Below, piece after piece: positions 14,301 to 62,562 of a DNA stretch of 64,000 bases. How positions within the stretch are numbered: position 1 is the stretch's first letter; the number at the start of each line of letters is the position of its first letter. The stretch is from Hydractinia symbiolongicarpus (taxonomy: Eukaryota > Cnidaria > Hydrozoa > Anthoathecata > Hydractiniidae). Position numbers and translations under genes: made by a program. The notes under the pieces were generated by a model. The model had not been told where the DNA came from, ran no database searches, and worked only from the letters and a program-made list of their open reading frames with translations. Location: NCBI RefSeq assembly GCF_029227915.1, contig NC_079880.1, forward strand, positions 8,461,501 through 8,525,500. The letters run 5' to 3'.

Positions 14301-17300
14301 CCTCGCCACAAAGTTTATCTTGCATTACTAAGCTCTAGAGATAGGAAAAGGCGGATGTTAGGACAGACCCCGTTAGCACTTTACCATTCCACGTCAATTT
14401 ATAGATCATCCACGTCAAATCAACGATAGAGGAGTCGATAAAATCCATGTGCACTTTACCACTTTACGTTAAATAAGCGGGCATGCTCTATAATATCCGC
14501 CCCAACCCCCCAACCCCCGCCGTGTCCCCCGGGCCCCCTCCCCATGGGTCCCCCACCCACCCTCATCTGTCGTGCCTTATAATTTATAGTGTTATGTGTG
14601 TCTATAATGTCCTCTAGCCAGTGTGGTAAAACCATCTGTCAATCAAACGCTTATAACAATAGGATTTTACATATTTTACATACCAGAAAGTTGTTTACAT
14701 AAGAAAAAAGTTAAAACGAAAGTAGCCGTTGCTAAGGATATTTGGTATGTAAGGAATGCATTGTTTCTCTATTGTTATTCTGGCTTGATTGACATTTAAT
14801 TGACGTCATTCTTTATCTAAACAAATACCATATGAAATAACCTGTTGTCATAACAATCACAAGAGCGATCTTCTCATCTTCGTGTGTAGGAGGAGTATCT
14901 TTGTGGTAAGGTGCAGTAATGTGTTTATCTGTAGTATCCACGTGGTGTACGGTGATGTGTTTATCAGGATGATCGGGTGTTACAGGCTTCTTTTTAGTTA
15001 TCTTATGCGATTCGGTAACATTGACCTTTCGATTGATACCAATGGTAAGATCTTCACCCGATATCAAAATCTTGTTGCTGTAACCTACCACCCCTGTCTT
15101 AATTCTGAGATTCATGTCACTAGGTAACATATAAATACCTTGTCCAACCGAATAATCAACCTTACTTGAAGCGTAGTTTAACGTATCCTGATAACGTTTA
15201 ATGTCCTCCTGAATATCAACCCTACGGTTAACAATGTCTTCAAGGTTATTCATAAAAACTCTTTGGGCGGTCAGAGCACTTGAATCATTACCAAGGATGG
15301 AGGAGCGTGCCGAGGCCTGAGAACTAAGAACAAGATAGGCATAGGCCCTAACACTGCTTGAGATCTTCACAAGGCCCGTTTTTGTAAATCCATCGGATTT
15401 TTCCACAATCCACCGCGTCATGGAGTCGTTAGTGAAATAACTCAACCCGGGAGTTGGATAGTCTTTACGTATTTTTTGATATGAAGTGAAAAAGTACTGA
15501 CCTCTGTATTTCATGGGGTTGGAATCAACATCATACTCACCACAGATTTTTAGAAATTCCTCATTTGAATAAGGATTATCATATTGATTAAAACTATCCT
15601 CAAAGGGTAGAGGTGTCTGTAGGCGCTTAATGATTCGTCTAATGTGATAATACACATGAAAACGATATATTGACCTGACCATAGATCTACCATCCTTCAG
15701 GTGTTCGGAACTTACCCCACAGGCACTTGAAGCACACCAAGTGGCGAAATTTAGCTGGGTTTGCCATAGTCTAAAAGGTTGATCATTCCAAATTCTCATA
15801 CGTTGCGCGTTATGACTAAGTTCATAATTGGTAAAAATATTAGGAAAGGAAGCGGGGAAAGAGCCACTTTCAGACACAATAATGGCCTGTTTGTACAGAT
15901 CCCTAGCGCCCAATATTTGAAGATCCCGCCCTCCATTTGGCTTATATGCCGCATTCGGATTATATCTGAAAATATCATCCATTCTTTGATTTAAATATAT
16001 TAACTATCTCTAATATAATAATGTATATCACAATAAAGGACGTAAATAGCGAGAAGAAAATCTATTTGTATCAACCGATAGACAACTCACATGGTACAAA
16101 GGAGGTTGCGATCGTGGAGACGTTTTCAGATAATGTCACATATGTAGCTACAGCTCCAATAGATATACCCTTGGCCGATGGAGTTACCACGGTTAGGTTA
16201 CAACAGGGTCAGCACTACACGGGTAGGGAGTTGAATTCAATCGTGAGAGGTGATGTAAAATCAACACAACTAGCTAGAAACTCTAAGTTGAGTAAAATAT
16301 TCAATATGGAGGGTGTAACGGAACTACATTTTAATCTTAATGAATTGGATAACTCGTTAAATCTTAAAGATGGTGAATATAGCAACAACCTGATGACATA
16401 TCATATATCCGAGTATGGTGGTGATTTTACATATATTGAACCGAAAAATCCGCAATATAAGAAACTAAAGAAAGGTTTACTTCAATCACTTACCATGAGA
16501 GTCACAGGTCAGGATGGTAAGGTGTTATGGGGTGGTATGAAGACAACAGTTACCATTCACATAAGAGATACGGCGTACAGATGATACCGTAGCATTAACC
16601 GAATTAAAGTAAAATAAAATAAAAGTAATATGGAATAGCATGGAATACGGGAAAAAGTTAAACCCAGAGCGTTCACTTAGGATCGCACATGGCGTAAAAG
16701 GAACGCATCAAAAAGTAATTGTCACTCACAACCCAAGTGAGATTGATCAGAACCAGTTACTCCTGATTAGGTTCCCTAATTTAGGTAACGATGATGTCAT
16801 TGTTCCTGGTACTTCGAAAATAAGTTTCGACATTGATCTCGAATCAAAAGTCGACACGAAGAGAACATTGGTCTCTAACATAGGGAGGGCAATTGTTAAA
16901 AAGTTGGCCATCAAGTTCGAGGGTACCGAGATTCTGAGCATTGATGACTTTGATCTTTTCGGGTGCTACAGAGATTTATGGTTAACCAAGTCTGAAAAAA
17001 GAAATGCAATAAGACAAGGTATCATCTTTGATGAAGGGTGTACAGAAAACTGTATGAAACTGAGAGTTGGAGCCGCGGATAAAGACGCATCGGAGGTAGC
17101 GGACAAAGCTATTTATGATGCATACAAAAACAAGTTCACCATACCACTAGATTTTGAAATGTTAGATAGCACGATCCCATATTATCAGGCTGGATTAGGT
17201 AATAGGCTGTGTTATGAGATAACATTCAACAATTATGACAGGGTAGTATTATCAACACCAACCAAACCTTCCGGTGCCGCATCGGCACCCGCGCCGGATG

Positions 17301-20300
17301 CTAAATACAAAATCTCCAACATATCTCTCGAATATGAGATTGTGACACAACCCACACTCGCCAGATTCATCTCAAATGAATACCAAAACATGGCCGTGCT
17401 CTATGACAGATTTCTTAGACATAGACAAATTAGGGTGGATAAGTCGGACACAACATGGAATTGGTCGTTCAATACACCGTGCAAGTCTTTGAAGGGTATA
17501 TTGGTTCTGTTTGAGGAAGAGAAATCTTACAAACGAGATACAGGTAGGTTCTACAATCCTAAGATCAAAAAGGTATCCGCCATAGTTGAGGGTAAGCCTA
17601 ACCAACTTTTCGCTCAGGGGATGCAACCGTTTGAGCATTATGGTGAAATATGCAAGTATTTTGCAGAGGGTAAACAAAGGGATGGCAACGCCGGTGAAAT
17701 ACAAAAACATCTGCAACTACATGATGTGAAGGTCGCGGACTACCTAACCACGAAATATGCCCTATGGCTGGATTTCAGAACCATAGATGAAAACTCACTG
17801 CACGGGACCGGCCGCCGGATTGAAAATGCGAGCGAGGGCATCACACTGCAAGTTGAAAAGACGGCCGAAACCGCGGGATCCTTAAACGCCTACATATATC
17901 TAATCATGGATGCTCAATTAAATATTCAAAACGGTGAAATTATGGATGTACTATATTAAGATGGACTACATGAAAGATCCTCACACGGCATTATTCGTCG
18001 GTCCCACGGGCTGCGGAAAATCCCAACGCGTTGTAAAACTGCTAGAGAGCGTGTACTACAACCACTTCGATTTCATTGTGATTATATGTCCAACATTAAG
18101 ATGGAACAAGACATATATGGGGAGTAACTGGTTCTGGAGGGATAGATATGTGATTCTAATTGAGCCCATGGGCATGTTGTATGAATGGATCCAAAAGATG
18201 ACGGATTTCTGTGCCGGATACAAAACATTATTCCTGATCGACGACATCATCGCGGATGAGAAACTGGACAAAAAGAGGCAACCGCTTCTGGAGCTGGCCA
18301 TCAGCGGTCGACATCGAAACCACTCCATGTGGCTACTCACACAATCATACACCGCGATACCGAAGAACTTACGAAGGCAGGCAAAAATGTTATATGTGTG
18401 GTATCCGAAGGACAGGGATGATCTCGCAACCATCCACAAAGAGAACGATGTCATTGAATCATCGGAGATACAGAAGGTTAAGGAAAGGCTGAAAGATGGC
18501 AAATATACACATTTAGTCATGAGGATGGAATCTCCACGAACTCACGTGATTTGCTAGAATGGGCATTTTTTGTTACAAGACTCTTGTAACAAATCTATAG
18601 GAAAACTACAGTACTATCCTACAATACCATGATAGAATATATAAATTTCATATTACTGGTGACAGCCGTGGCGCTATTGCTGGTATTGGTTAGTTTTTGC
18701 CTTTTTTGTATTAAAAAATACCTATCGCTATTGAAAATGGCTGAAAACGCAATTGGCAACATAATTTTTATCGATGAACAGGATGCCCGGGATGATGGGA
18801 AGAGACAAAAATTGCTCGAGTGTGTGCTGACCGGAAATAGTAAGTTATATCTTGGTAAGATGTATACGGAGGCGGAGATCCAGAAGCTCAAGAATGATGA
18901 GGTGGATAAACTGTTCACCATATACGAGGCTAAACTATCCGGTCAAATGGTAAAGTCTTTGGGACAGTCAATAATCCACATGTACTCCATGGGCGCCTGT
19001 ACAGCTCTCGGTATAAAAAATCAAAAAGCTCTGAGTGATGACCTGGAGAATGATCCTTTCTTAAACTCGGCACTCCAAAGGTTCACATGTGATCTATATT
19101 ATAAGTTCGGATCACTACTATCACCAATCAGTGTAGGTTTAATAACAGGTAGGCATTATATCGCGGGAAAAAATTTAAACAATATCGATACGGATACTAA
19201 AGATGTCGGATACTCCAGTTCAGGTGACAACGAAGAACCCTAAAAAGGTTGAGGCCGGTAAGAGGCTGGCCGAATACAACCGTAAAAAGAGGGAGGATTA
19301 TAAAAGATTGCTCATGGCACAGACGGAGGTACAGTCGGCACCTCAGACACAAACCCAGCCGGCACCTCAGACACACTCGGCACCTCAGACACACTCAGCA
19401 CCTCAGACACAGTTGGAGGATCCTAAGGATATTGTCATTGAGGATTCTGTGACAGACGGCCCCAAACACGGCGGAGTGAACTACACAATAATGGGTGGTG
19501 GTGTGATAGTTATGCTACTAATTGGAGCGTTGGTGGTCTATAAAAATAAGGACAAAAATATTAAGGTGAAGGGTACCCCACCAAGTAACTCGGGTAATAA
19601 AAAAACTATGAGAAAAAGTAAGCTTGAAATGGAATAAAGGGATAATATCGCGATACTATAATCTTGAAGTAAATATAAGACATGTATAAGAAAAGTATAG
19701 TCAACGATATTTATAAAGCATCGGTCGTATGCGTTTTCGCTGTGGGCTATTCAATGCTCGGAAAAAAGGTATTAAAAATGACACCACCCTCAATTCAGAA
19801 GTTTGACCTGGAAGATACCGGAAAGCTTGTAGCCATAGTCGCCGCAAGTGAAATGACAAGAGAATATCTGGTTAAGCAGAAAATTATACCCGAAACTATA
19901 AATATATAATGTTGCGAATACTGGAATGGTTGGTCTGGGTTTTATATCGACGTAAGAAAGTTGAGAGTATTTTACCCAAGGTGGAATACACGGATATCGA
20001 GGTCATAGACGACTCTGATGTCATAGACTCCGAGGCTATCGTATTAAAATAACGCCACTATATTATACCGGATTATATAAACATGGCTTCAATTGCAATG
20101 ATGTTGGGAGGTGCCTTCGCGAACGCTTTGGCCTTCACCGGATCAAGCTACCTCTTTTCAAGTTTATCAAAGGATAGGATAGATAAGGAACGGAAGCGGC
20201 ATGATCTAGCCATAGAACAACTGCAGAAGGCTCAGGTTATATGGCAACGTAAAAGACAGGAGAGGGTTGACTTTATCAATAAGCAGCTCAGACTTGAGAA

Positions 20301-23300
20301 GAAGGCCGAGGGTAAATTCACGGAGCTGGATGACGCGATGCGGGAATATAAAAAAGTATTTGGAGGATCACCTCTCACAGATATTCCGCGCAGGCCCGTA
20401 TTGAGCGACTTTTATACACCCAGCAATGGCCAGCATGAACGGGAATTGGCATTTATCGCGCTAAGCATGATCGGTGTCGGGGGTGCCGTGTGGTATTTCG
20501 AAAAATAGTACTATGCCGCGGGTATTATGTTACATGTGTCATGTAACATATATTCGGAATAGCTAACGCTTTGTAACCATGTAGGTGTATATCAGACCTC
20601 CGATTCCAACTATCAAAGCCCACAGGTTTTGACTCAACCAACCGACGGCTTCCTTTGCTCTATTTAGGATCCACGATACGATGGATCCAATTATACCGGG
20701 CAGTGATGCGGCTGCGGCACCGGCTAATCTATCCAGGAGAGATCCCAGCGCGTTCAGCTTGTTCTTTATCCATTCCCTCGCACCACCTTCGGTTTTTTCA
20801 TGATTTTTTGTATTACCGGTGGATGACCCCCCACCCCCTGGTGTCAAAGTTTCAACTAGAAGGCCGATAACCATACCAAATGCCGTTAGTACACTGACGA
20901 TGGTGATACCCTGCTCACGGAATAGCGTTCGTATCTTTTCACCCAATGTAGTTTCTTTGTCAAGTACTTTGGTAATCGTCTCCCTGATGCTTTTTATTTG
21001 ACTGTTAAGTTTACCTTTTAGAATATCGATAATCTCTTGCCGGCCTTTCAACTCATTTTGCAAACCTTTCAACCTTTCTTTCGCTTCATTTTGTTGTTCC
21101 TCGGTCATATTTGGTGTGTTTTCCATCTCTTCCAACTTGTTTTTTTCTCTGTCAATATGCTGTTCGAGCTGAACCTTTTTTGCAACTTCATCCTGAAGAC
21201 TTCCTCTTATGTTTCTCAATGATCTATCCAATCCTAGCAATTCACGCATAGGATATTCAAATAGATCACCGGTCTGGGTTGCTTCATGGTCTACAGATTG
21301 TTGTTTGACCAATGAAATTAAATCTTCCGCACTGTTCACAACATCTCCAGACATGGTTTCTAATTCTATATCGGTCGCATTCTCTATTTTATCCGGTGAC
21401 GGTAGTCTCTCTTCTATTTTGTTTAGCCTAGCGGCCTGTCGGGGGGTTATACTACCTTTCGGTATATCGAACCCCAAACCGCGCAGCCTTTTCTTGCCCA
21501 ATAGATCTGCAATGGTACCGGTAGACCTTAGAGATCCACCATTTGTCAGAGGTCTGTTATCACCCTTGTAGTATAATTCACGACCACGAGACTCAAACAG
21601 ATCGGTATGTATCACGCTCGAGTTCTCGTTTGGATACATAGTTAGTAGCTTCTCATAGAGCGATTTAACCAGCTCACTGGTAACTCTGGAGCGCAGAGAG
21701 GTTTCTCCACCGAATGATGTCTCCTCATCGGGAGTATGTATCTGTACTCGTGTGCGTTCCCTCGGTACCAGAGGTGTGGAGTCATCGGTACCCTCGTCGG
21801 GTTGACCATGGTCACCAAACGGATCAATATCAATGTCCGCCATTATTTTATTTTATTTAAAGGATAGTTTTTTCCTAATATAATAGAAATGGCAGAGAGT
21901 TCTAGTACCAGAGAAGAAACTTTTAAAACGGATATATCCAATTCCCAGCTTGAGGAGTTGGTGAAATTACGAGGCAAGTTCCAAGACAGGACGCACGAAC
22001 ACGGAGGATCTCTGATCATATGGTCGATTCTGGAGGGATTATCCGGAACCGCAGCAATTACCGGCTCGATAGCGACCGCGGTGACCATTATTAGAAATTT
22101 GGGCGGTACCCATGGAAATTACATGTGGAATTCGGGTATGTGTCTATTGGGCTCGGCTTCCTATGCGGTTACCGCCCAATATGTTAGGACATATCGGGAG
22201 AAACTTATCAAATTAAGAGCCGCATATCGCGTTGTACAAAATGCCATCGATGTTTTCGATAAAACGCTACTCTGGCACACTCGGATCTGTAGAGCCGATT
22301 TTGAGAATTTGTGTGATACGTATCATAGAACTCTCAAGGATCTGGATAAACTGGATATAGGTTATTTAGAGTAAAGTTTTTTTCTTTGTAGTAACCACAC
22401 AATGGCAGAGATTTATCCGAAGCTACCCACGGCTCCCGAGTATTCGAGCGAGCAGGACAAGTTTAATACTAATACTGTGAACTCTCAACTTGGGGAGCTT
22501 AGAAAATTACGTGATAAGTTCAATACAAAATATGAGAAATATAACAAGACGCTGCACAGACTGGTGCTTTTAAATGCCAGCGCCACGGCCCTAACCGTCG
22601 CTTCGGGCATAGGTTCGGTGGTAACCGGTGCCACGCTCATCGGAATCCCCGCTTCCGTGGGATTGGGAGCCGTAGCACTGTCCGGAACCATTTTCACGGG
22701 CTCCGTCATGGCACTGATTAAAAGATATCGGAGCAAACTTGACAAGGTCATGAAATTATATGATGTTGCGACGTCCGCCATCGCCGTGTTTGAAAACTCC
22801 GTCTCGCGGGCTCTGAATAATGACGACATTAGTCACATTGAATTTCAAACCCTGAGCGGTATATACTACGAAGCTCTGAACAAGATGACGAAAACCGACA
22901 GAAAGATGGAGAGCGAAACTCGCAACCAGTTTGAAAAAGTCTAATGGACGAGGTTCAAAGCCTCAGAAGGACCGTAAATCAAGGTTAGTGATGTGCGCAT
23001 GTACACCGCTCGCATATTTCGTGTGGTACGATAAAAATTAATATTAAGGCGGTTTGTGACATTATGCGGCGCGATCGTCCCCCCAAGACTGAGCCATAGC
23101 GGCCCTATCTGCCGACCGACCCGCGCGATCCCCGGCATCATCTTTACCTGTTTCTGGCAAAGATATCGTCCCCTTTTTTCACCAACCTTGCACATAATCA
23201 GGAGGTAATTCTGTATCTTCGGGTATTAACATCAATTCCTCTTTTACAAAAGCCCGTACAGGTCCGTCTTGAACATAGTACATTACACGTTTACCAGGTT

Positions 23301-26300
23301 GCGCTATTACCTCACGCAATCTATATGTGTTTTTCGACCATATTCTATCGGTTGCCCGTCTCCGCCCATCATCATGCTCTTCACCGGGTTGTAGTAGATA
23401 TCTATACGGGCCATCTTTTGGTAATTCTACTTCGGGTGGATAATTCTCTCGTTTAGCAAGAGGCACCTCTTTCATTATAATAGCATCTTTTGGTTTCATA
23501 CCAATCATCTGCGTCTTTGTATCGTTTAGCCTATCAATCAGTTTATACAGATGCTTAACCCATGTAGATGATACCTTTTCCGAATCATTCAGTTCTTGGG
23601 CATCTTGTATTTTGAATAAATTTTCGGCAAGTATCTTGTTCAACGCCTCAACAAAAGCTGTGTGCGTATGCTTATATTTTGTAGTCGCTCTTTTAATTTC
23701 AACCTTATGCTTCTCCAACAGCTTTGATACATCTGCCTTGAATTCTGAACCGTTATCACATTGGAAAGTTTTCGGATAAGTTAATGGTCCTGCCTTGTAG
23801 ATGTCCTCAATCATAGCGGCAACCTCTTTGGCTTTCTTAGTCCTCAAAGGTCGGGCTACCTTGTATCTGGAAGCAGCATCGATTCCCGACAAAATGTACT
23901 TATATTTATTACCATACAGTATGTCACCGGGCATGTACAATAAATCGAATTGATGTAAATCATTAGGGGTGGTAACTTCATAATGTGGTCTTTCAACATG
24001 CTTTGGAGCGGGTAAATGTACTTGCCAAAATGCTTGTTTTGATAGCCACTTCTTAATCTCCTTTGGCCTGAAACCGAATCCTCTTAAGCTCTGAACAGCC
24101 TTTTGTCCTTTCCATAAATTTTGAGGTTGATAGTAAGTCTCTTGAAGTTTTGACATGTTTTATTTATGCACACCTTTATTTATCTCCTTTTTGTGTTATG
24201 ATGTGGTACGATAAAAGTGCTTAAAGTTTTTCATATATTATATTAATATGTCAGACATGGATACCACACCGGATTATAAATTGATGAAACTGAGAGAGTT
24301 GCGAGAGGTTGCCAAATCCCGCGGAATTAAGTATATCGTGGGTATGAGAAAGGCTAAACTGGTTGAGGTGATTGAGAAGAATGATCTCGACCCATCCTAC
24401 ACCATCGATCTGGATACCAAGAAGGAATGGTATGGATACTGTTCAAGGTGGAGGTCGAAAAACAGGGAGGCATATCTAAAAGCTCAAAAACGTTATAACG
24501 ACAAAAGATCCAAGTGATTGGGTATTTTTTTGTTACTCAGACGAGTAACAAATGTTGGTGGGTGGGTACCCATGGTGTACCGGTCACGACCCTCTAGGTG
24601 CCGGTGGGTGGGTACCCATGGTGGAGCGATGTTGGTATCATAAAACGTGTTTTACCGCCATGGGGTCGGGTGGTTGTCTTGCGAACGAAGCCCCTCACGA
24701 TCCTCGCGACCTCGGAGGTCCTGATTTTTTTCCCTGGGGGGGTACCCACCCACATTTACACTCCGGTGGTTGTCTTGCGAACGAAGCCCCTCACGATCCT
24801 CGCGACCTCGGAGGTCCTGATTTTTTTCCCTGGGGGGGTACCCACCCACATTTACACTCCGGTGGTTGTCTTGCGAACGAAGCCCCTCACGATCCTCCAC
24901 CCCGGTGGTTGTCTTGCGAACGAAGCCCCTCACGATCCTCCACCCCGGTTTACGATTTATAAAAATGTCTTAAAGATTACAAAATCGTATATCATAGCCA
25001 AGCATGTCTTCAGGAATCGTTCTCGATTTGATACACAGTAGAGAATATATTGATGACTTTGATCTTTTCACGGTCCCTGATTTAAGAGCCAGAGCGAGGT
25101 ACCTTGGCCTACGTGGATACTCGCGGCTCAGAAGGGCTGAGCTTATCGAATTACTGTTATCAACAGTACCCGCAAGATATCCCGATATGACTTTACCGCT
25201 CGTCATAGGGATGCTGGATCTCGAAGTGACCGAATTTTCTGGACCCGTGATGAGGCCAAATGTATCAGTGCCAAGACCGCTACCGGCACCTGGACCGATA
25301 CCGGCGCAGCTTGAGGTTGATGATGATGAGGACGCCGATGACATTGATGAAGATGATAGATGTATCATTTGTCTTTCTAAACGAAAGACCGCAACCATTG
25401 TTCATGGTAGAGCGGGGCATTTTTGCTGCTGTCTATCATGCGCATCTATATTGGAGAATAGGAGGGATAAATGTCCCATATGTCGGGCACCAATAGATTT
25501 TGTCATTAGACAATATTGAACGCGAATTCCCGGCCTTTGTTACTCGGACGGGTAACAAAAATCCCGAGGTGTCGATGGGTGGGTACCCATGGTGTATCGA
25601 TGTATGTATCACAAAGCGTGTTTTACTACAATTTAGCATGGTGGTTGCCCCACAAACTAGGACACTCACGACCCTCCAACACGGTTTACGATTTTTAGAA
25701 AAATGACTTAAAGATTACAAAATCGTATATCATAGCCAAACATCTTAAAGATTACAAAATCGTATATCACAACCAAGCATGACTTCGAGAAATACAGTTG
25801 TTGAATTAAGAGCTCTCGCTAGAGAACGCGGCCTACGTGGCTACTCAAGGCTCAGAAAGGCCGATCTGATCGAATTATTGACACCCACTACTGTGTCAGC
25901 ACCCATACCGGTGCCAAGACCCACCAGACCCGTACCCGTGCCGAGACCAATTAGACCCGTACCCGTGCCGAGACCCACTAGACCCATACCAGCACCGAGA
26001 CCCACCAGACCCGTACCCGTGCCGAGACCCACTAGACCCGTACCCGTGCCGAGACCCACTAGACCCGTACCAGCGCCGAGACCGGTACCAGCACCCATAC
26101 CGGCACCGAGACCAGGCACTAGCCAACAAGACATGGATTTGAAAAGCAAGTTGATCGAATGGAGGGACTGGTTAATAAATCATGTACCTAAGGCTATTAA
26201 GGAGAAAGCGAGCAAAGCTTTCAAAACCATGAATGATAAGATCATGGGTTTGTATAAAAAGGGCAGTGGAGAGGAAGAGGTGGAGGAAGAGGTGGAGGAG

Positions 26301-29300
26301 GAGAAAGAGGAGGAAGAGGAGGAAAACCCCTATACCCCCATTGAAGAAGCTTTTGTAGGTTCATACAAACGTTTCAAAATAAACTCGGATGGTGGGAAGA
26401 ATGTCAGGGTCTTTCTCGAAAAGGTCGAGCACGTCGTAAATAGGTTGATGAGTGACGTGCTCGGGCAGAAGAAGTCGCTGAAGACTCAGGCGACCTTGTG
26501 GGTGAAGTGGGTAAGGGAGGACACCAGCTCGACCGATGCCCCGTGTGTACATGTCGATAAAGCTTTCAATAGCTATATGGAGATACTGCACGCCCACGAT
26601 GACATTTCCGATGTTTTCGATCGGATGTGTAATAAGATAATCGAGCAGATTGAGAACCCCGCGCTGCCAGCTAGCGGATTCACAATTGATAAAATCTTGC
26701 ATATGCATGTGGACTTTCATAACCTGAAATTAACCAGAGGTAGTTCTTACTTACCGCTACCCAAGAATTTCAGTGGAAAGCGATCTGTGATTAACCCTCA
26801 TAACGAGGATGATGATAAATGTTTCAGATGGGCTATTATCGCTGCTCTCAATCATGATAAGATCGATAATCACCCTGAACGAATCTCAATCCTTAAGAAG
26901 CATGATAAGTATAATTGGGATGGTCTAACTTTCCCAATGGCGCTAAACAAGATAGATTTGTTTGAGAGAAGGAACCCCGATGTCGCTGTGCATGTTTTGA
27001 CAAAGGATGAGGGAGAAGGTATCTACATGTGTCGCAAGTCGAAGCATCTTGACCGTAAGGAGACGGTTGTTTTGTTTTTGCTGTGTGAGGGTGATAAGAA
27101 GCACTACATTGCTGTTAAGAACTTGAGCGGTGTACTGAGCAAGGTTAACTCGAAGGATGGACATAGAGAGCATTATTGCTTGAATTGTCTCTCTGGTTTT
27201 CTAAGCGAACAGAAAAGGGATGAGCACTTTGAGTATTGCAAGAATAACGATGCCGCTAAGATTCAACTCCCTAAGGATGGTAGCACCCTAACCTTCACCG
27301 ATGGTAAGTTTCAGCTCAAAGCCCCATTCATCATGTATGCCGATTTCGAAGCTTTTACAAAAGAGTTGCCAGAAGATGAGAGAAAATGCGGATCATCCAC
27401 CGAGAAAGTTGGTAAACATGTTCCCACCGGATTCTGTTGTTATAGTAAATATGCTCATGGTGAAGTGCCGGACCCTCTGAATCTTTACCGCGGTGAGGAC
27501 TGTGTTCCGCGCTTTGTAGATCATGTAGTTTCTGAGGCGGAAAGGTTATATAACATGTTTCCTCAGAAAGCAATGGATCCACTGACGGATGAAGAGCGTG
27601 ACGGTTTCAATAGAGCCAGGGTGTGCCACATTTGCATGGAAGAATTTGATGACAAGGATGACATCAAGGTTAGGGATCACTGCCATTTCACCGGTAAGTT
27701 TCGTGGGGCTGCCCATCAGAAATGTAATCTGCGTTACAAGGTTCCTAATTATATTCCGGTTGTCTTCCACAATCTGAGTGGCTACGATGCGCATTTATTC
27801 ATTAAGGAGCTTGCTAGGAAGTACGGAGAAGATGGTATGGGTGTAATCGCGGAGAATAAGGAGAAATATATCTCTTTCTCTACGGATGTTAAGGTTGGTG
27901 AATACATTGACAAAAATGGTGAGACCAAAGACAAAAAGATACAACTGAGATTCATAGACTCATTTAGATTTATGTCAAGCGGCCTAAGCTCCCTGGCTGA
28001 CAACCTATCAGATGATCAATGCAAAAACCTTCGAAAATTCTTCAATGGTGACGAATTCAAAATAATGAGAAGGAAGGGTGTATACCCATATGAGTATGTT
28101 AACTCATTCGATAGGTTTAATGAAACTAAGCTTCCGTTGAAAGATGACTTTTATAGCAAGTTGAACATGAATGGTATCAGCGATGCCGATTATGCGCATG
28201 CCCAGAAGGTGTGGAAGGACATGAAAGTTGAAAATATGGGCGTTTATCATGATATCTATCTCAAGACGGATGTTCTGCTTCTGAGTGATGTGTTTGAGAC
28301 ATTCAGAGAAACATGCTTGAGAAACTACGATCTAGACCCGGCTCACTTTTACACTGCTCCGGGATTAGCCTGGAGGGCGTGTTTGAAAAAGACCAAGGTT
28401 AGTCTAGATTTATTGTCGGATATGGAGATGGTCATGTTCATTGAGAGTGGTATTAGGGGTGGATTGTGTCAGGCTGTCCACCGCTACGCCAAGGCCAACA
28501 ATAAGTATATGGGGGACGAGTACAACACATCGGATGGGAATTGCATGGATTTATTTGAGCAGCAGGAAATGGCTAAAACCGTGCCTTTTGTAAAAAGAAA
28601 ATTGATTGAATTGAGGTACTGGTTGATGAAACATGTACCTAGGGTCATCAAGGTGAAAACTAGTAAAGCTTACAGAGCCGTGAAGGATAAGATCATGGGT
28701 TTGTATGAAAAGGTATGTTGGGGACCGTCTGTACCGAAAGAGGAAAAACAATATACCACCAAAGCCAACACATCTGAGAGTAAGGAGATGAATAGCTATC
28801 TCCAGTACCTAGATGCAAATAATTTGTACGGCTGGGCCATGATTCAGAAGATGCCGACCGGAGGGTTTGAGTGGGTTGATGACGTGGTTTCTGATTTTAC
28901 ACCCGAACTGATTTCACAATTAGCTGTGGAAAACGGTGAAAAGGGGTACATCCTTGAGGTTGATGTTAGCTATCCACGGGAGCTTCATGATTCTCATAAC
29001 GACCTTCCTTTCATGCCCGAGAGGAAGATCATTAATGGCGTCGAGAAGCTGACACCGTGTCTTTCAGACAAGAAGAAATATATCACTCATATCCGTGCGC
29101 TTGATCAAGCGTTGAAGCATGGTCTTGTTCTTGAGAAGGTTCATAGGGTCTTGAGATTTGATCAAAGTGCGTGGTTGAAGTCGTACATAGATTTTAACAC
29201 TGATTTGCGTACCAAATCAACGAATGACTTCGAGAAAGATTTTTTCAAGCTGATGAATAATTCGGTCTTTGGGAAGACAATGGAGAATCAGCGAAGGCAG

Positions 29301-32300
29301 AAGGATATACGCTTGGCTACCAAGAAAGAACAATATGAGAAGCTGGTGATGAAGCCAAACTTCAAGGGTAGCACGTGGTTCTCGGAAACACTGATGGGCA
29401 TAGAGATGTCCAAGATCAAGATCAAAATGAATAAGCCAATCTACCTGGGACTGGCAATTCTCGACTTGTCCAAGATAGTTATGTATGAGTTCCACTATGA
29501 TTACATGAGACCAAAATATGGTGTGGATGTAAAGCTTTGCTACATGGATACAGATTCATTCGTTTATCATATCAAAACCGACGACTTTTACAAAGATATC
29601 GCCGACGATGTGGCTTTGAGATTTGACACTTCGGGGTACGATAAGAAAGATGGTAGACCTCTACCATTAGGTTTGAATAAAAAGATCATTGGTCTGATGA
29701 AGGATGAGTTGGGTGGTAAGGTAATGACCGAATTTATCGCTCTTAGGGCTAAGAATTATGCTTACAAACAGCTATGTGGTAGGGAGGATAAGAGGTGCAA
29801 GGGGGTCAAGAAATGTGTGGTGAGGAAGACAATAGGTTTCGATGACTATAGGAGATGCCTGTTGGAGGGTGAAAATGTTTACAGAGAACAGATGACCTTC
29901 AGATCGATTAAGCACGATGTCCACACGATAAAAACAAATAAACTCGCGCTCAATGCGGATGATGATAAGCGCATAATTTTGGATGATGGTATTACCACAC
30001 TGGCAAGAGGACATTATAGACACACATAACACTATAACTTATAAGGCACGACAGATGAGGGTGGGTAGGGACCCATGGGGAGGGGGCCCGGGGGACACGG
30101 CGGGGGTTGGGGGGTTGGGGCGGATATTATAGAGCATGCCCGCTTATTTAACGTAAAGTGGTAAAGTGCACATGGATTTTATCGACTCCTCTATCGTTGA
30201 TTTGACGTGGATGATCTATAAATTGACGTGGAATGGTAAAGTGCTAACGGGGTCTGTCCTAACATCCGCCTTTTCCTATCTCTGTTCTCCGTCTCAGGTT
30301 TAATGTCATTTTAACGGAGAAAGAAATTTAGAGTCGCAAGTGGCTTTTGTTAAAAGAATATTCCCTTTTTATAAAGGTCGGCTTGGTATGGAATGTTTTG
30401 TTGTGGCATCTTTCATTCAAAATATAATACTGGGTTTTAATTTTCTCACAAATAGGCAAAAGTCACAAGCAGACACCGAAAGTTTCGTCATTATTGGCGT
30501 TAACCTTCTTAGCTCGGCTGCATGGTTATGATACTTCCTGGGTTATAATGTTAATCTTTAAGACACCTGCATGCCAAATGTTTAGGTTGGGGGACACCCT
30601 CCCCCCTTCCCCCTGGACATATAACGTTCAAAAAAACCCTCGACCGAGGCATTCTTTTTGTAGTTTTTTCAATCGTTAATTTAGATTTTCCAGAATGTGG
30701 CTGGCATGTTTTTAATTACTTATAAAAAATCATAAACTTTTGTGGAGCAAACACGGCCCCCCTGCCCTTTCTTTGCAAGCGAAAAGTTGTAAGTTATACT
30801 CCACGTAGGAACCATGCCAACATGGAAACAAATTTGCCTCAAAAGTTCCGTTTAAATCTTGAGGGTGCACGTACCTGTTGGAAATTAGGTTGGATTACCA
30901 CAAAAACTCATAGATTATATGCGAGCCTATTCGGTTCGGGGGAGGGGGGGGGGAGTGGGGCCCATATAAGGCTGTTGTCTAGTTGGGCTGAAATTTCCCA
31001 GAATTTTTTGTAGCAAAATGGAAGCTTTTAACACTCTAGAACCGGTTTTGTGGCACCACGTGGAAAGAATAGATAAGGTATATCTCTCAAAATTAGTGAG
31101 GCTAATCACATAAAATGTAAATCACTACTACTAACAACATGTAAATACGCGAAAAAAAAGATGAATTCATGAGCAATTTTTTTCTATACAGTTTTGTGAT
31201 GCTTGAAGTCTCAGTGAATGGAAAAACTTTTGTTTCAACAGATATTCGTGTAACAGCAGTTTCGTGCGAAAAGGTAACCATAACAAATTTTTATTTTTTG
31301 TGTTTTTTAATGTTTGTTCAAGAAGGAAGTTTTGGGAATGAGGGTGACTCTTATGAAGTTATTTGTGGGCCAATATTCGTGTATTCTCTTCGTCGCGTCG
31401 TAATGCTTTTTGTCTCGTAGCATGGTTTTTATTGTGTTGTAGTGTCCCTTTCGTCGTGGCGGATTGTTCTTTACGGCGTGACTTTTGCCGCGTCGTAGTG
31501 TTTTTCATCGTGGCGTTTTATTCTTCATTGTATGGTTTTACGTTTTGTAGAATCGTATAACTCGTTGTATTGTGTTCATTGCAGCGTACTTCACTTAATG
31601 CTCTTTTACATGGAATAACTAATTTCGTTAACTTATTTCAAGAAATCCACACAGAAGCCCCATAAGTGTGAGTCGAGTTTTTTATTTTAGCTAGCCAGCT
31701 AAAAAGAATAAAAGTAGGTTTAGATATAGTAGAAAGAATACTATTATAAATGACTTTAATTTTTATTTAATAAAAACAAAATACAGAAAGAGTGAAATTG
31801 GTGTGCTTCAAACAGAATATCAGAACGGAATATTAATCGTAAATCTTTGCTTTCTGCTATTGTCTTATTTAGTCAAATCTAACTTTAGATATTGTTTCGT
31901 TTAGTAAAATCCAACCTCAGCTATTGTCTCATTTAGTCAAATCAAACTTCAGCCAAAGTCTTATTAATCAAATCTAACTTCAGCTATAGTCTTATTTAGA
32001 CAATTCTGAATTCAGCTATTGTCTCGTTTAGTCAAATCTAACTTCACCCAAAGTCTCATTTAGTCAAATCCAACTTCAGCTATAGTCTCATTTAGACAAA
32101 TCCGAATTCAGCTATTGTCTCGTTTAGTCAAATCGAAATTCAACTTCAACAATAGTTGGGACAATTTTTGGTTTGTTGTTTCTTGCATTGTTATTGCTAT
32201 GGTGGTTTTGGATGCTGTTGCCATGCGTGGTAAGTGCAATGAGTTACGATATAACCCCAACCTCGTCCCCAGTGTTTTGTGGCCCCTGAACCGTTATTAC

Positions 32301-35300
32301 GGAGGGGCCAACACTCCGCTATCAACTTAATCAACAAGGCAAAATACCCTGGGAATGAGGTTGGACATAACCCATCTATTGTATCGCTACCTTCAAATCA
32401 AGCATCTAATCATTATTTTCTGCATCCATACTCTATTCTACATTAAGTTAATTCTTCTCTTCTAAATAGAGTCCTCCAAAATCTGCTGATTCACAACTTT
32501 TACCTGTAGAAGCCGATGTAAGTAATTTGTTTTTTGTTGATTTACACACTTAAATTACGGCGGTAATGCAGTGGCTGACGCATAGACGCACAAACTGGGT
32601 AGACGCGAATCTTCAGTAAACAGAACCAAACTGTTTTTTCATCTCACTTTGAACAAACTGTATTCTAATTCTTTTTCCAGTTGTTTTATTTGATAAAGCA
32701 AAACCCATTGATCTTTCGCAGACTAAACATTAAGCTTTTAAGACCATACTTGTTTGTCTAAATAACACTCTATTTAAGTCTGGTTTATTTAAAAAATTTT
32801 CTCCATTTTCTGTGTAAGCTAACAAAATGGTTTTGACGCAGCTCTCAAATCTCAACCGTAGGTGATAACTATTTTTCTATTATCTAATTAGGGATTTACA
32901 GCTTCATAGAGTTTTATTTCTTTTTGGTTTTAATCACAAGTAAAATAAAACCAGGACCTGCTTTAATTGGATTTCATTTTTAACGCTCATAAGTCCCCAG
33001 AAACAGTGTACATAACGCCTCGCAAAACTATCGTGCCAATCAGAAATAGTTCCGTAGCAACAAAGTAGGAAAAATGTACCGCACTTTCTATTTTGTGTGT
33101 CCGTAGCGCTACTTGTTTTCTTGCACACACACTAGACAGAATACAAGTAATATTATAACAGACTAGTGCCTGGGCACATGTCGTTGTACACCGGTTATAG
33201 CCCCTAGAGTTGAGCCTTTAGTTGCTTGTTAGCACGGAGTGTTTTCGGCAGCCATGATAATTTAAAAATAGATATTCTGCTGCTGGGGACAAGAGTTATT
33301 AACTTATTAAGAGTTAACTAGCACTATGCTAGTTATAGACAATAACATTTGTATAGTTGACTCAACCTCGTCCCCAAGGGTTGCTAGGGTTATATATTTA
33401 GACAAAGGGTTGCGCTCAGATCAATCTCCTTCCCAGGGTTTTTTATAAAGAATTAATAAGACGTAGGGGCGAGGTTGTAATTGGTCCTCAAACTACACAC
33501 TATATGATCTCCATCATAATTTGGATATGTTGAAGACAGATAGTTCGTAATATCCACAGGCTGTAGTAGCGGATAACAACAGTGACGTCTCAATCAGTGT
33601 TACGGAAAGAAGTATTTTGCATAGCTAAATTTTGTACTTCAAAGACGTTTCATACAGTATATAATACGTAATATGGAGTTGAATTATATGGATATGGAAG
33701 AGTTTATGGATACTTATGAATATAATCAATCGAAGGAGTCGCTAAGTAGTCTTTCTTTTTTGCAATCCGTTGGCAGTCTTGGTGAAATGATTAGCCAAAC
33801 TGACCCTGATGCAAACGGCACAAACAAATCCACCCCGCAAGATTTGACTGCAGATTTATTTTGCAATATGTCAGATAGTGAGATAATGAGTCATTTTATC
33901 CCTGTTCGTGGAATAGACTATGGTCTAAATTTCGAAGGTGTTGACTTATTGAAAAAAGACAAAAAAGTTGAGCAGATAGAGGAAAGCTATGACGAGTTGT
34001 TGCCACATCTAATGATACAACAGTCAAATCCTATTTATAAGATTGGTGGTGATTTTAATTCTGTTTTCCCAACAAATAAAGAATCATTACTGAATACGGA
34101 TAGTCCGCCAGAAAGGACAGCAAATGTAGATGCCACAAAGAAGGTAACAGTTTCAAACAATTACATGGGATCACAAAAAGATGGAAAATCAAATACCGGA
34201 TACCAGGATAAAGTTGTACCACGGCCTGTTAAGAAGCGAAAACCAAGAACATACAAATATAATCCAAAACCATTACAACACAAGGAATCAAGAGCATTTG
34301 TACCTGAGGATTTAAAGGATATTGATTATTGGGAAAGAAGAAAAAGAAACAATGAGGCTGCTAAAAAATCAAGAGAGGAAAGGCGAAAAAAAGAGCTGGA
34401 AATTTTAAACAATTATGATGCGATGAAAGAAGAGTACTCCCAAATTAAAATTGAAAATGTACGTTTAAGGGCCAGAAATGCTGTGCTGGAACAACAAATA
34501 GATGAATTAAAGTCAAAAAACTGAAGGAAGTATTCAGCATTGTTGGAACGTATAAATAATTTCTTTTAAAGTTGATATATATAGTCAAGTTACGATAAGA
34601 GGGTGCCGACTTGCCAAAAGCGCCGTATATATATGTGAGAGCGGCCATTTTTTGGGTCATTTTTAAGGTTTTTTTATCTGTAACCGATGGAAAAGCCTGG
34701 GCTAGTCCAAAACTGCCTGATTTGCGCCCGAAATTCAACGCACGCAAGCTCAATGTTCTCATTTAAATTTTTTTGAGAAAAGGAAGGTGCTATTTTGTTG
34801 TTGTATGCTCAGTTTCCGGCGAATCGGCATCCTCTACAAAAATGGTGAAGAGGTAAGAAGTGTAATTAGCCAAAAAGGTCCTCTCTCTATATATATATGT
34901 TTATATTTGTGTGTGATTTTCTTTCAGTTTTGGACATTATATATTGTGTCAAACATTTTAGTTACTTTATTTGTAATCAATTTATTGTTTTCGGTATATT
35001 GTTTGATAGATCAGTACTGTACTGTATATAAAAATTGTGTTAAAAAATATTTTCACAAGCCAGAGTATATATAAGGAAGGGGTTGTCATGTTTGAGGCTT
35101 GCTAAAATTATTAAACTTAGAATAATAACAGAACACTAAAAACAAATTATTTGGCATTGTATAAGAAGCCAAGGTAAGGCAGCTCGTTTTCTCAACACAA
35201 TATTGATTGGTTGTACTAACCTTTCTGGTTTCTATGATATAACCTTTAGATTTTTTTCCTACTTTACATGTCTAAAAGTCCTCAAATCCATAATGTTCCA

Positions 35301-60099: not shown

Positions 60100-62562
60100 T
60101 TATTCGTTGTATTGCTCGTTAGTACAAGTCCTTACATGATCCCAATACAATGAAGACGGCATTCTGGCATTACAATGTTCACAAGTATACAAGTTATCAC
60201 GTATAGAAATGCCTAAGTTTTCCATATAAGTTGGAGATCTAACATTTTGTCGCAAATCAGGTGTTGACTGGTTACGTTTATACACTGGAGAGTTTTCTGT
60301 GGGAGGATTTCTTTTTTCTTCTGTACCATGTCCTCGTTTTACTTCTGGACCATCAGAAACTACGATTTCTTTTGGCATATTCATCCATTGCGGGCCAGCC
60401 ATAGGAGAATTTGTAATATAAGGTTCCGATGGAGGTGGACCACGACCCTAAAATAATGGTAATATTGAAAAATTGTCCGCCCTTTGAAACTTAGTTTTGA
60501 TATCAATGCAAGAAAGCACAGAGAGCCTGGCAGTAATAAGAATACTCACCAATGGTACAAATTGATGTCTCTGATGTTCGTCCAATGGCTCCCTTGCATA
60601 ACTTGATGATGCAGTCTGTCCAACCTGCTTTGAGTTTAACTGAAAAAAAAAAAGAAAAAAAGTACATTTTTCAAACCACCCTTAATAACAAGGTCAAAAT
60701 ATTAGCTTAACCTTAATAGACGAAAGCTTTCCATTTTTTTGCAACAATCCTAATCGTGTAAACATGTCAAGTTTAATACAAAACACTTTAAATCTTGCAG
60801 TTACATTTTTGAACGAAAAAGTTGAGGTATATATATATATATGTATGTACGGCTTTGTGCTTGCGTTATAAAGAGAACCTCATGCAAGTAGAACCAGCAA
60901 AATAAAAAAATTACAAGAAGATTTTTGAATTTTTAGTTTAGTTCAGGTTTAGAAAACTTACTAGATAGGTAGTTTTTTGTTGCACTTTAATAATTGTTTA
61001 AAACTAACCAAAACACTTTGTAAACATAGTTATCTTCAAATATATTTATTGCAATTGTAATGCTTAATTCTTTTTAAGTTTTTTTTAAATTTATGACCCT
61101 TAAAAATGCATAAAAAAATTGAAAAAAAATATATTTTGCTTTATTTTATTGGGTAACTAAATCTAGAACAATCACAAAAATTATTATTACATACCTCTCT
61201 TAGCTTATCATATTGACTTTGTATAATGGATTTGAGTTTTGTATTTTCCTTCTTACAGTTTTCATAATCTTGAAGTTTCGTACGACAATTGTTTAACTCA
61301 TTTTCCATTTCATCCATTTCCATTTTAAATTGTCGAGCCTCATTATTAGCTTGTGTAAGCTATAAAATTGATAAATAGATAAACAAACAAGTCTTATAAA
61401 GTATATAACATATAGAACTAAGTCATATATATATATTTTAAGTATAACTTACTGCTGTTGTCCAGGATGCAATTTCATTAGATTGTACTTCATTATTCTT
61501 ATTTGCTTTCTCCACTTGGTCAACAAGATCATTATGAAACTGCTTCAGATTTTGTATTTCACTGTTACTTTTCGATAATTCTAAATTCAATTTGTTATTT
61601 TCCACTTCCAAAATTTTATATTTTTTTTCCATCTCAAAGATTTCAGCCTTGGCAGCATTGAAGTCCGAGATTTTGAATGGACCGCTGGAAAAAGTACCCA
61701 AACCAGAGTCACACTGGCTATCAGCTGAGTACTGTGATGTTGGCAAATTTACAGGTTCAATGTCTGGTCCAACAATTGACATTACATCTGTATTTGTGCC
61801 CTGGTCATTGCTCAAAGGTATTGTGAGAAATTCTGGAATTTCATCCTCCAGTCCTTTTAACTGACTAAAAAAGTTTGTTTCGTCCTCATTATATGCCTTA
61901 ATAAATCTCTTTGTTAAATCTGTGGTTAGGGCATCAAATTTTGCTTTTAAATATTCCATCACATTATGCTTCTGAATTAAATAAGACTTTAGTTCTGTGT
62001 TATCTTTCTGCAGAGAACTAACTTTTTGTTGAAGTCTAAATAGTTCTTTGTGAATAGAGTTAAATCCAACTTTTTCATCTAGTAATTGTTCTAGTCGTCT
62101 ATTTTCTTTGAACTTTCTTTCAAGCTCCAGTTTTAGAGAAGAGACATGTTCCTGTGTTTGATCTAACTGTTTGATAATCTCTGCACCCTTCTTGTTTTTC
62201 AACTCTTCATTCCATTTATTTATCAGCATACTGTTTTCTTTGAGTAACATATCAGTTATTCTTTTAACTGAAGAGTCATAAAAAATTTCAGCTGCATTCT
62301 TTGATTTATTCGAATTTATTCTTGAAAGTCGATCATTAGCATCATTAGCATTATTCCTCCAATGGTACAACTGTATACTAAGTTTACGGTTTTCTTTTGT
62401 CAAAATTTCATTTTGCTGTACGAGCCATTTGCTTGCATCAACAGTTTGTTTACTGTTTAATTTTGTATCTTCTAACTCTTTTGACAATGCTTGAATAACA
62501 ACCTTGTGTCTTTCATTTTCTGCTTTTATATCTTCTGTGTTTGGAAATGATTTTTGTGCCAT
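60100..62562 (-). CDS. Coiled-coil protein with C-terminal C2HC zinc finger, spliced
   Basis: Exons from the start: 61453-62562, 61195-61359, 60550-60639, 60100-60447; all GT-AG and phase 0; 570 aa. Exons 1-2 are almost wholly coiled coil (long heptad runs), interrupted by an acidic, Ser-rich patch with SQCDSGLGTFSS. Exons 3-4 are Pro/Ser-rich and end in a zinc finger, C-x2-C-x11-H-x3-C (CEHC, then H and C), the spacing of RAD18-type UBZ fingers and close to the NEMO/optineurin finger. I do not recognise the orthologue. The architecture suggests an adaptor that dimerises and binds ubiquitin. Start chosen at the first Met of exon 1. Confidence 0.85.

Follow-up and report, generated by a model that had tools for sequence, protein, structure and literature searches.

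Cys2His2Cys4 has been described as an MDM-specific RING motif (PMC5543598), and in the parts of the literature available RINGs of the MDM type are mostly described within animal p53 regulators; mdm2 homologs are also reported in an alga (PMC11371579). In MDM2 itself, I440 is needed for E2-ubiquitin binding, the I440K substitution abolishes E3 function, the chain continues two residues beyond Y489 (F490 and P491), and the last three residues pack on ubiquitin in trans in the homodimer (PMC7190642). C449 lies at the dimer interface, where C449N blocks MDM2-MDMX pairing; pairing persists with Ala at this position and, perhaps more weakly, with Ser (PMC6465955). A likeness of another kind is offered by RAD18, a RING ligase joined to a SAP-type DNA-binding module that binds single-stranded DNA in vitro and is required for PCNA ubiquitylation (PMC3157352). 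The RING of RAD18 differs in being of the C3HC4 type, and the protein has in addition a zinc finger that binds ubiquitin and a domain that binds E2. For Polintons, no report of an MDM2-type RING was found in the partially available literature that was searched; one paper there describes a SWIB/MDM2-domain protein of an algal virus. Here we describe a gene that joins an MDM2-type RING to an HeH (Rho_N/SAP-like) module inside a Polinton-type element of Hydractinia symbiolongicarpus, as one member of a large family of copies.

The Polinton-type element and its HeH-RING gene

The window, by which we mean the whole analysed stretch of 64,000 nucleotides, contains an element of 15.9 kb (14337-30283) bounded by identical 216-nt terminal inverted repeats (Table 1). 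Its initial annotation as a Polinton is borne out by these repeats and by the genes for PolB, for an integrase of the rve family and for a packaging ATPase, which, together with a probable capsid gene, are the features shared with Polinton/Maverick/adintovirus elements; integrase and ATPase both score above their Pfam cut-offs. It differs from them in the HeH module on PolB and in the MDM2-type RING gene directly upstream of the PolB gene. For an adenain-type protease, a Polinton/Maverick trait, the scanned ORFs of the element gave no Pfam match, although a diverged protease could escape such a scan. The DNA_pol_B_2 domain was not listed when whole PolB was searched, and was found with 3.5e-11 when residues 480-899 were scanned alone. 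Polinton/Maverick target-site duplications are 5-6 bp long; none is present here, the flanking six bases being AGCTCT and GTTCTC. Measured in 2-kb steps, GC content is about 0.39-0.47 inside the element versus 0.28-0.37 in most of the flanks. Because the repeats are identical and the genes open, a recent insertion is suggested.

Two repeats were observed within the PolB gene. Segments 26142-26262 and 28593-28713 are 82% alike, so that a part of the N-terminal linker, about 40 aa long, is repeated ahead of polymerase motif A, and a proline-rich linker is encoded by 27-nt tandem repeats (25901-26083). Outside the element, 33673-34524 and 61438-62562 are probable host genes, the first for a bZIP and the second for a coiled-coil protein.

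Table 1. Features of the element and of the HeH-RING gene (positions in the window)
Feature	Position	Strand	Evidence
Left terminal inverted repeat, 216 nt	14337..14552	+	100% complementary to right repeat
Probable major capsid protein	16640..17959	+	weak: Capsid_N 0.009, under cut-off; no solved-structure match
Packaging ATPase	17934..18557	+	Pfam Pox_A32 1.3e-8
rve integrase	23179..24156	-	Pfam rve 7.9e-10
Stand-alone HeH protein, 89 aa, basic C-terminal part	24248..24517	+	Pfam Rho_N 32.9 bits
Duplicated segment (upstream region, leader, HeH) of RING gene	24904..25156	+	aligns with 25640-25880
25-nt leader, 9 nt upstream of RING start codon	24970..24994	+	sequence comparison
HeH-RING gene	25004..25519	+	intact, 171 aa; first 62 listed of at least 197 same-genome matches near full-length, 80-100% identity
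HeH (Rho_N/SAP-like) module, residues 21-54	25064..25165	+	Pfam Rho_N 26.9 bits
Proline-rich linker, residues 81-101, akin to PolB linker repeats	25244..25306	+	direct reading
Acidic stretch, residues 104-118	25313..25357	+	direct reading
MDM2-type C2H2C4 RING and C-terminal tail, residues 119-171	25358..25516	+	Pfam, structure-database search, alignment
Duplicated segment, other copy, PolB 5' end	25640..25880	+	aligns with 24904-25156
Leader copy 1 upstream of PolB	25708..25732	+	
Leader copy 2 upstream of PolB	25745..25769	+	
PolB, 1416 aa, N-terminal HeH, endonuclease-VII-like zinc insert	25779..30029	+	Rho_N 30.5 bits
Right terminal inverted repeat, 216 nt	30068..30283	-	100% complementary to left repeat

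The HeH-RING ORF stands as first annotated, open over 171 aa and ending in ...VIRQY. Two Pfam families score above cut-off in it, zf-C3HC4_3 (43.2 bits, residues 117-165) and Rho_N (26.9 bits against a cut-off of 24.9, residues 23-52); SAP stays below (12.8 bits against 23.9), and there is no Pfam match to a p53-binding domain. The proposed fusion of a RING to a Rho_N/SAP-like module is thus upheld through Rho_N. The best solved structure for the module is the SAP domain of Ku70 (listed as thyroid autoantigen), with an E-value of just 0.025; helices are predicted at residues 24-34 and 44-58, the HeH block having a pLDDT of 56-77. Modules of the HeH/Rho_N kind can also bind RNA or proteins. Both single-sequence structure models are of low confidence (mean pLDDT 40.9, and 48.6 for the RING alone), and we give no weight to the Foldseek search with these poor models, which ranks MDM2/MDMX first at a non-significant E of 0.25-0.5.

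The assignment of the RING is carried by sequence. Its zinc ligands C120, C123, H134, H139, C143, C146, C157 and C160 have the spacing C-x2-C-x10-H-x4-H-x3-C-x2-C-x10-C-x2-C, and all eight align without gaps with C438, C441, H452, H457, C461, C464, C475 and C478 of MDM2. Against three MDM2 RINGs, likewise without gaps, 22 of 53 positions are invariant; a DNA pattern for this spacing has a single match in the window, and none of 100 shuffles has any. By phmmer against solved structures the protein matches MDM2 with 52.6 bits (4.7e-13), followed by MDM4 (36.2), MGRN1, the nearest family outside MDM in this search (29.4), and XIAP (25.7). A profile of seven element RINGs gives MDM2 66.1 bits (2e-17), MDM4 54.1 (1e-13) and, as the nearest non-MDM family, MUL1 29.5 (5e-6). 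The initial reading of a spacing distinct from common C3HC4 fingers, and of membership in the MDM rather than the IAP or C3HC4 family, agrees with these searches; an IAP-like or ordinary C3HC4 RING was rejected on the bit scores (XIAP 25.7 vs MDM2 52.6; MUL1 29.5 vs MDM2 66.1).

The likeness to MDM2/MDMX further includes the IVHGxxGH core, the residue at I440 and the tyrosine at 489. The core and the terminal tyrosine had both been pointed out beforehand, and Y171 does fall on MDM2 Y489, though MDM2 extends two residues further: the window copy ends at this position, without the Phe-Pro that completes the MDM2-length tail, and has Thr at position 449, as do the element RINGs in general. The 171-aa protein does not have the full-length MDM2 architecture, with p53-binding, acidic and zinc-binding domains beside the RING. 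An acidic stretch can be read in it, but neither a p53-binding domain nor a RanBP2-type finger was found, the HeH module standing in their place; cnidarian MDM likewise is without a p53-binding domain (PMC5543598).

Relatives were also sought among prokaryotes and viruses. A bacterial origin was considered and rejected: the single match to the spacing pattern in a prokaryote genome collection was treated as chance, because its frame has a stop within the pattern and a 417-aa ORF runs across the place in another frame. No relatives were found among phage records, and none was confirmed in IMG/VR with the protein, polymerase, capsid, RING alignments or pattern; the IMG/VR negatives say little, because a control pattern with IAP spacing found two stretches there that are not RINGs.

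The leader, the HeH module and the polymerase gene

The HeH-RING gene is tied to its downstream neighbor by both coding and noncoding sequence. The N-terminal HeH of PolB is 66% identical to that of the RING gene, and the local DNA alignment of the two 5' regions (24904-25156 and 25640-25880) scores 92, compared with a maximum of 14 in 200 single-base shuffles, so that the earlier claim of a module common to both proteins was confirmed. Over 29 shared HeH codons dN is 0.18 and dS 1.0, and a leader run of 33 nt is identical between the two regions; therefore the leader and HeH were duplicated together. The leader may have been kept afterwards by selection or gene conversion. Judged by its position it would be a promoter, and its presence before both genes suggests joint expression of RING and PolB. 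The two proteins may also act on the same DNA, as the initial annotation proposed. Upstream of the RING gene lie tandem repeats with units of 96 nt and 43 nt (24669-24949), the 96-nt unit containing GGGTACCC, and a TATA-like word, TATAAAAA (24958-24965), is located about 40 nt before the start codon.

One could imagine from this arrangement that the ligase is a regulator of the element itself, trimming PolB or the stand-alone HeH protein, or acting in replication as RAD18 does, with no host target. The HeH and leader held in common with PolB speak for it, as does the row of three consecutive HeH genes (24248-24517, the RING gene and PolB). However, the unrelated fronts that replace the HeH in other copies, described below, fit no single substrate within the element, and we find this explanation improbable.

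Copies across the genome, selection and varying fronts

The genome searched, which contains the window, comprises 481 Mb in 76 contigs. With the 171-aa protein as query it yields at least 197 matches (150 of 575 candidates were scored; individual matches are fragments, and a single gene is at times represented by two), and the first 62 listed cover almost the whole protein with no inner stops. We examined 48 loci, namely 40 stretches picked for diversity rather than at random and eight other matched loci. At least one RING fitting the ligand pattern is present in 45 of them, amounting to 52 RING ends (37 distinct as proteins); of the other three, L018 has Tyr in place of the second ligand His, L031 is interrupted by a break in the frame, and L045 carries an additional Cys. 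A frame of 53 RING columns accommodated 48 of the 52 ends, four being dropped, and left 36 rows distinct at the DNA level.

That these 36 rows agree in all zinc ligands follows from their having been picked by ligand pattern. The same selection did not bear on I122 (MDM2 I440), T131 (at the position of MDM2 C449), L150 (L468) and R161 (R479), which are found in every row; P158 and Y171 are kept in 35. In MDM2, L468, P476 and R479 contact E2 or ubiquitin. The dN/dS of the RING has a median of 0.22 and is always below 0.5 (445 non-independent pairs, restricted to dS 0.3-1.5 and to proteins that are not identical), and at the level of sequence the RING is under purifying selection in many copies. 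For the HeH the median is 0.48 (51 pairs, 19 rows). The tail varies among copies, with no residue after the Tyr, one (Ile or Asn) or two (Met-Ser).

The part in front of the RING differs between copies. By a rough pattern count the 52 ORFs comprise 26 with one HeH, 12 with two, seven in which acidic runs come after an FTDDEN-type front, and seven others, where one (L049) is by eye a diverged HeH and another, the minus-strand ORF of L035, has no Met before the RING. Three of the non-HeH fronts, the FTDDEN type among them, gave no Pfam domain over cut-off. The leader is present whichever front follows, be it one HeH, two or an unrelated one: in 48 of 51 RING ORFs it is found, with up to 8 mismatches, no farther than 60 nt from an in-frame ATG, and in 40 it stands exactly 9 nt ahead of it, a count favored by taking the ATG with the best leader where there were several. 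As a control, 52 of 2000 random 60-nt pieces of the same loci pass, true leaders being included among the pieces. The leader also recurs downstream of the RING in other copies, and a PolB-type HeH follows the RING gene in at least 18 of the 28 loci L004-L031 (exact pattern, short stretches). Six loci (L032, L033, L034, L035, L039 and L048) hold two or more RING genes each, with fronts of different kinds, facing one another or in tandem.

The likely host RING and the proposed function

Searching the same genome with the MDM2 RING yields at least 150 places (150 of 165 candidates scored), several of which are absent from the matches listed for the 171-aa query. One of these was examined, on contig C12 at about 20942800 (L069), and is likely a host exon: its surroundings are AT-rich (GC 0.29), a pyrimidine-rich stretch ending in AG upstream of the RING is a likely splice acceptor, and the closest approach to the leader in the stretch, with 8 mismatches, is on the opposite strand. 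It resembles the element RINGs in the Thr at 449 and in an acidic stretch before the RING, and differs from them in the features just named and in a tail ending in HFNS. Five element RINGs share 66-73% identity with its RING, compared with 43-47% for three vertebrate MDM2 RINGs; the same five element RINGs are 41-52% identical to the vertebrate ones. Because the likely host RING is closer to the element RINGs than to vertebrate MDM2, the element probably captured its RING from a host MDM-type gene, which would be the simplest account; capture by the host from the element, the opposite direction, would be less simple. Same-strand ORFs with zinc-finger-like repeats were observed upstream of the host RING exon (L073 from 9370, L074 from 5882), possibly as part of one gene.

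Taken together, we see about an even chance that the gene encodes a ubiquitin ligase of the Polinton-type element, one that stems from a host MDM-type RING and is probably co-expressed with the polymerase. The RING would recruit host E2-ubiquitin, as expected because the I440 residue is kept, Thr stands at 449 as in the host exon, and tails are often short; its partner may be another copy or the host protein. The HeH module, by analogy with the SAP of RAD18, would tether the ligase to DNA, probably the replicating DNA of the element or host chromatin, where it could ubiquitylate DNA-bound proteins, be they host silencing or damage factors or replication proteins. A ligase with the front of the window copy is probably tethered to DNA; this cannot be the general function of the family, because some copies are without HeH. 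Because the front module differs in other members, the family may work as an array of ligases in which the catalytic end stays constant and the aiming end differs.

The initial annotation had suggested that p53-family or DNA-damage responses of the host could be targeted. A ligase degrading a host p53-family protein would be in keeping with the MDM2 type of the RING, and p53-family exons do exist in the genome (11 matches in three clusters). Against p53 as the target, Pfam finds no p53-binding domain in the 171 aa, relatives carry other N-termini, the front modules varying among copies, and the tail is short of two ubiquitin-packing residues; we consider this target very improbable.

The short tail bears on another explanation, in which the element RING would pair with a host MDM-type RING and redirect or block it, as MDMX does with MDM2. 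The tail of the window copy, two residues shorter, may weaken homodimer activity, and the I440 residue is retained despite the short tail. MDMX rescues tail mutants of MDM2, its own last residues standing in for the tail (PMC8459461, PMC6465955, PMC7190642). The Thr at the C449 dimer position, common to all 36 element rows and the host exon, would also suit such a pairing, yet the substitutions met at MDM2 449 are Asn, Ala and Ser, with Thr not among them in the part of the study available (PMC6465955). Moreover, in many copies the Tyr is followed by one or two further residues, which may make a partner unnecessary, and both single-sequence structure models are too poor to lend support. We consider this explanation unlikely. 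A wider scenario, which we put forward tentatively, is that of an element-borne ligase arsenal, where the captured MDM-type RING and the fixed leader are kept, the fronts are swapped, and short-tailed RINGs pair with the host MDM-type RING.

Returning to the ligase of the element as the preferred reading, a large, selected, element-borne family with an MDM2-type RING would offer a natural set of redirected ligases. It would open a route to the functions that MDM-type ligases have apart from the p53-binding domain, which is reported to be absent in cnidarian MDM (PMC5543598), and it makes testable the idea that Polinton-type elements counter host control via ubiquitin.
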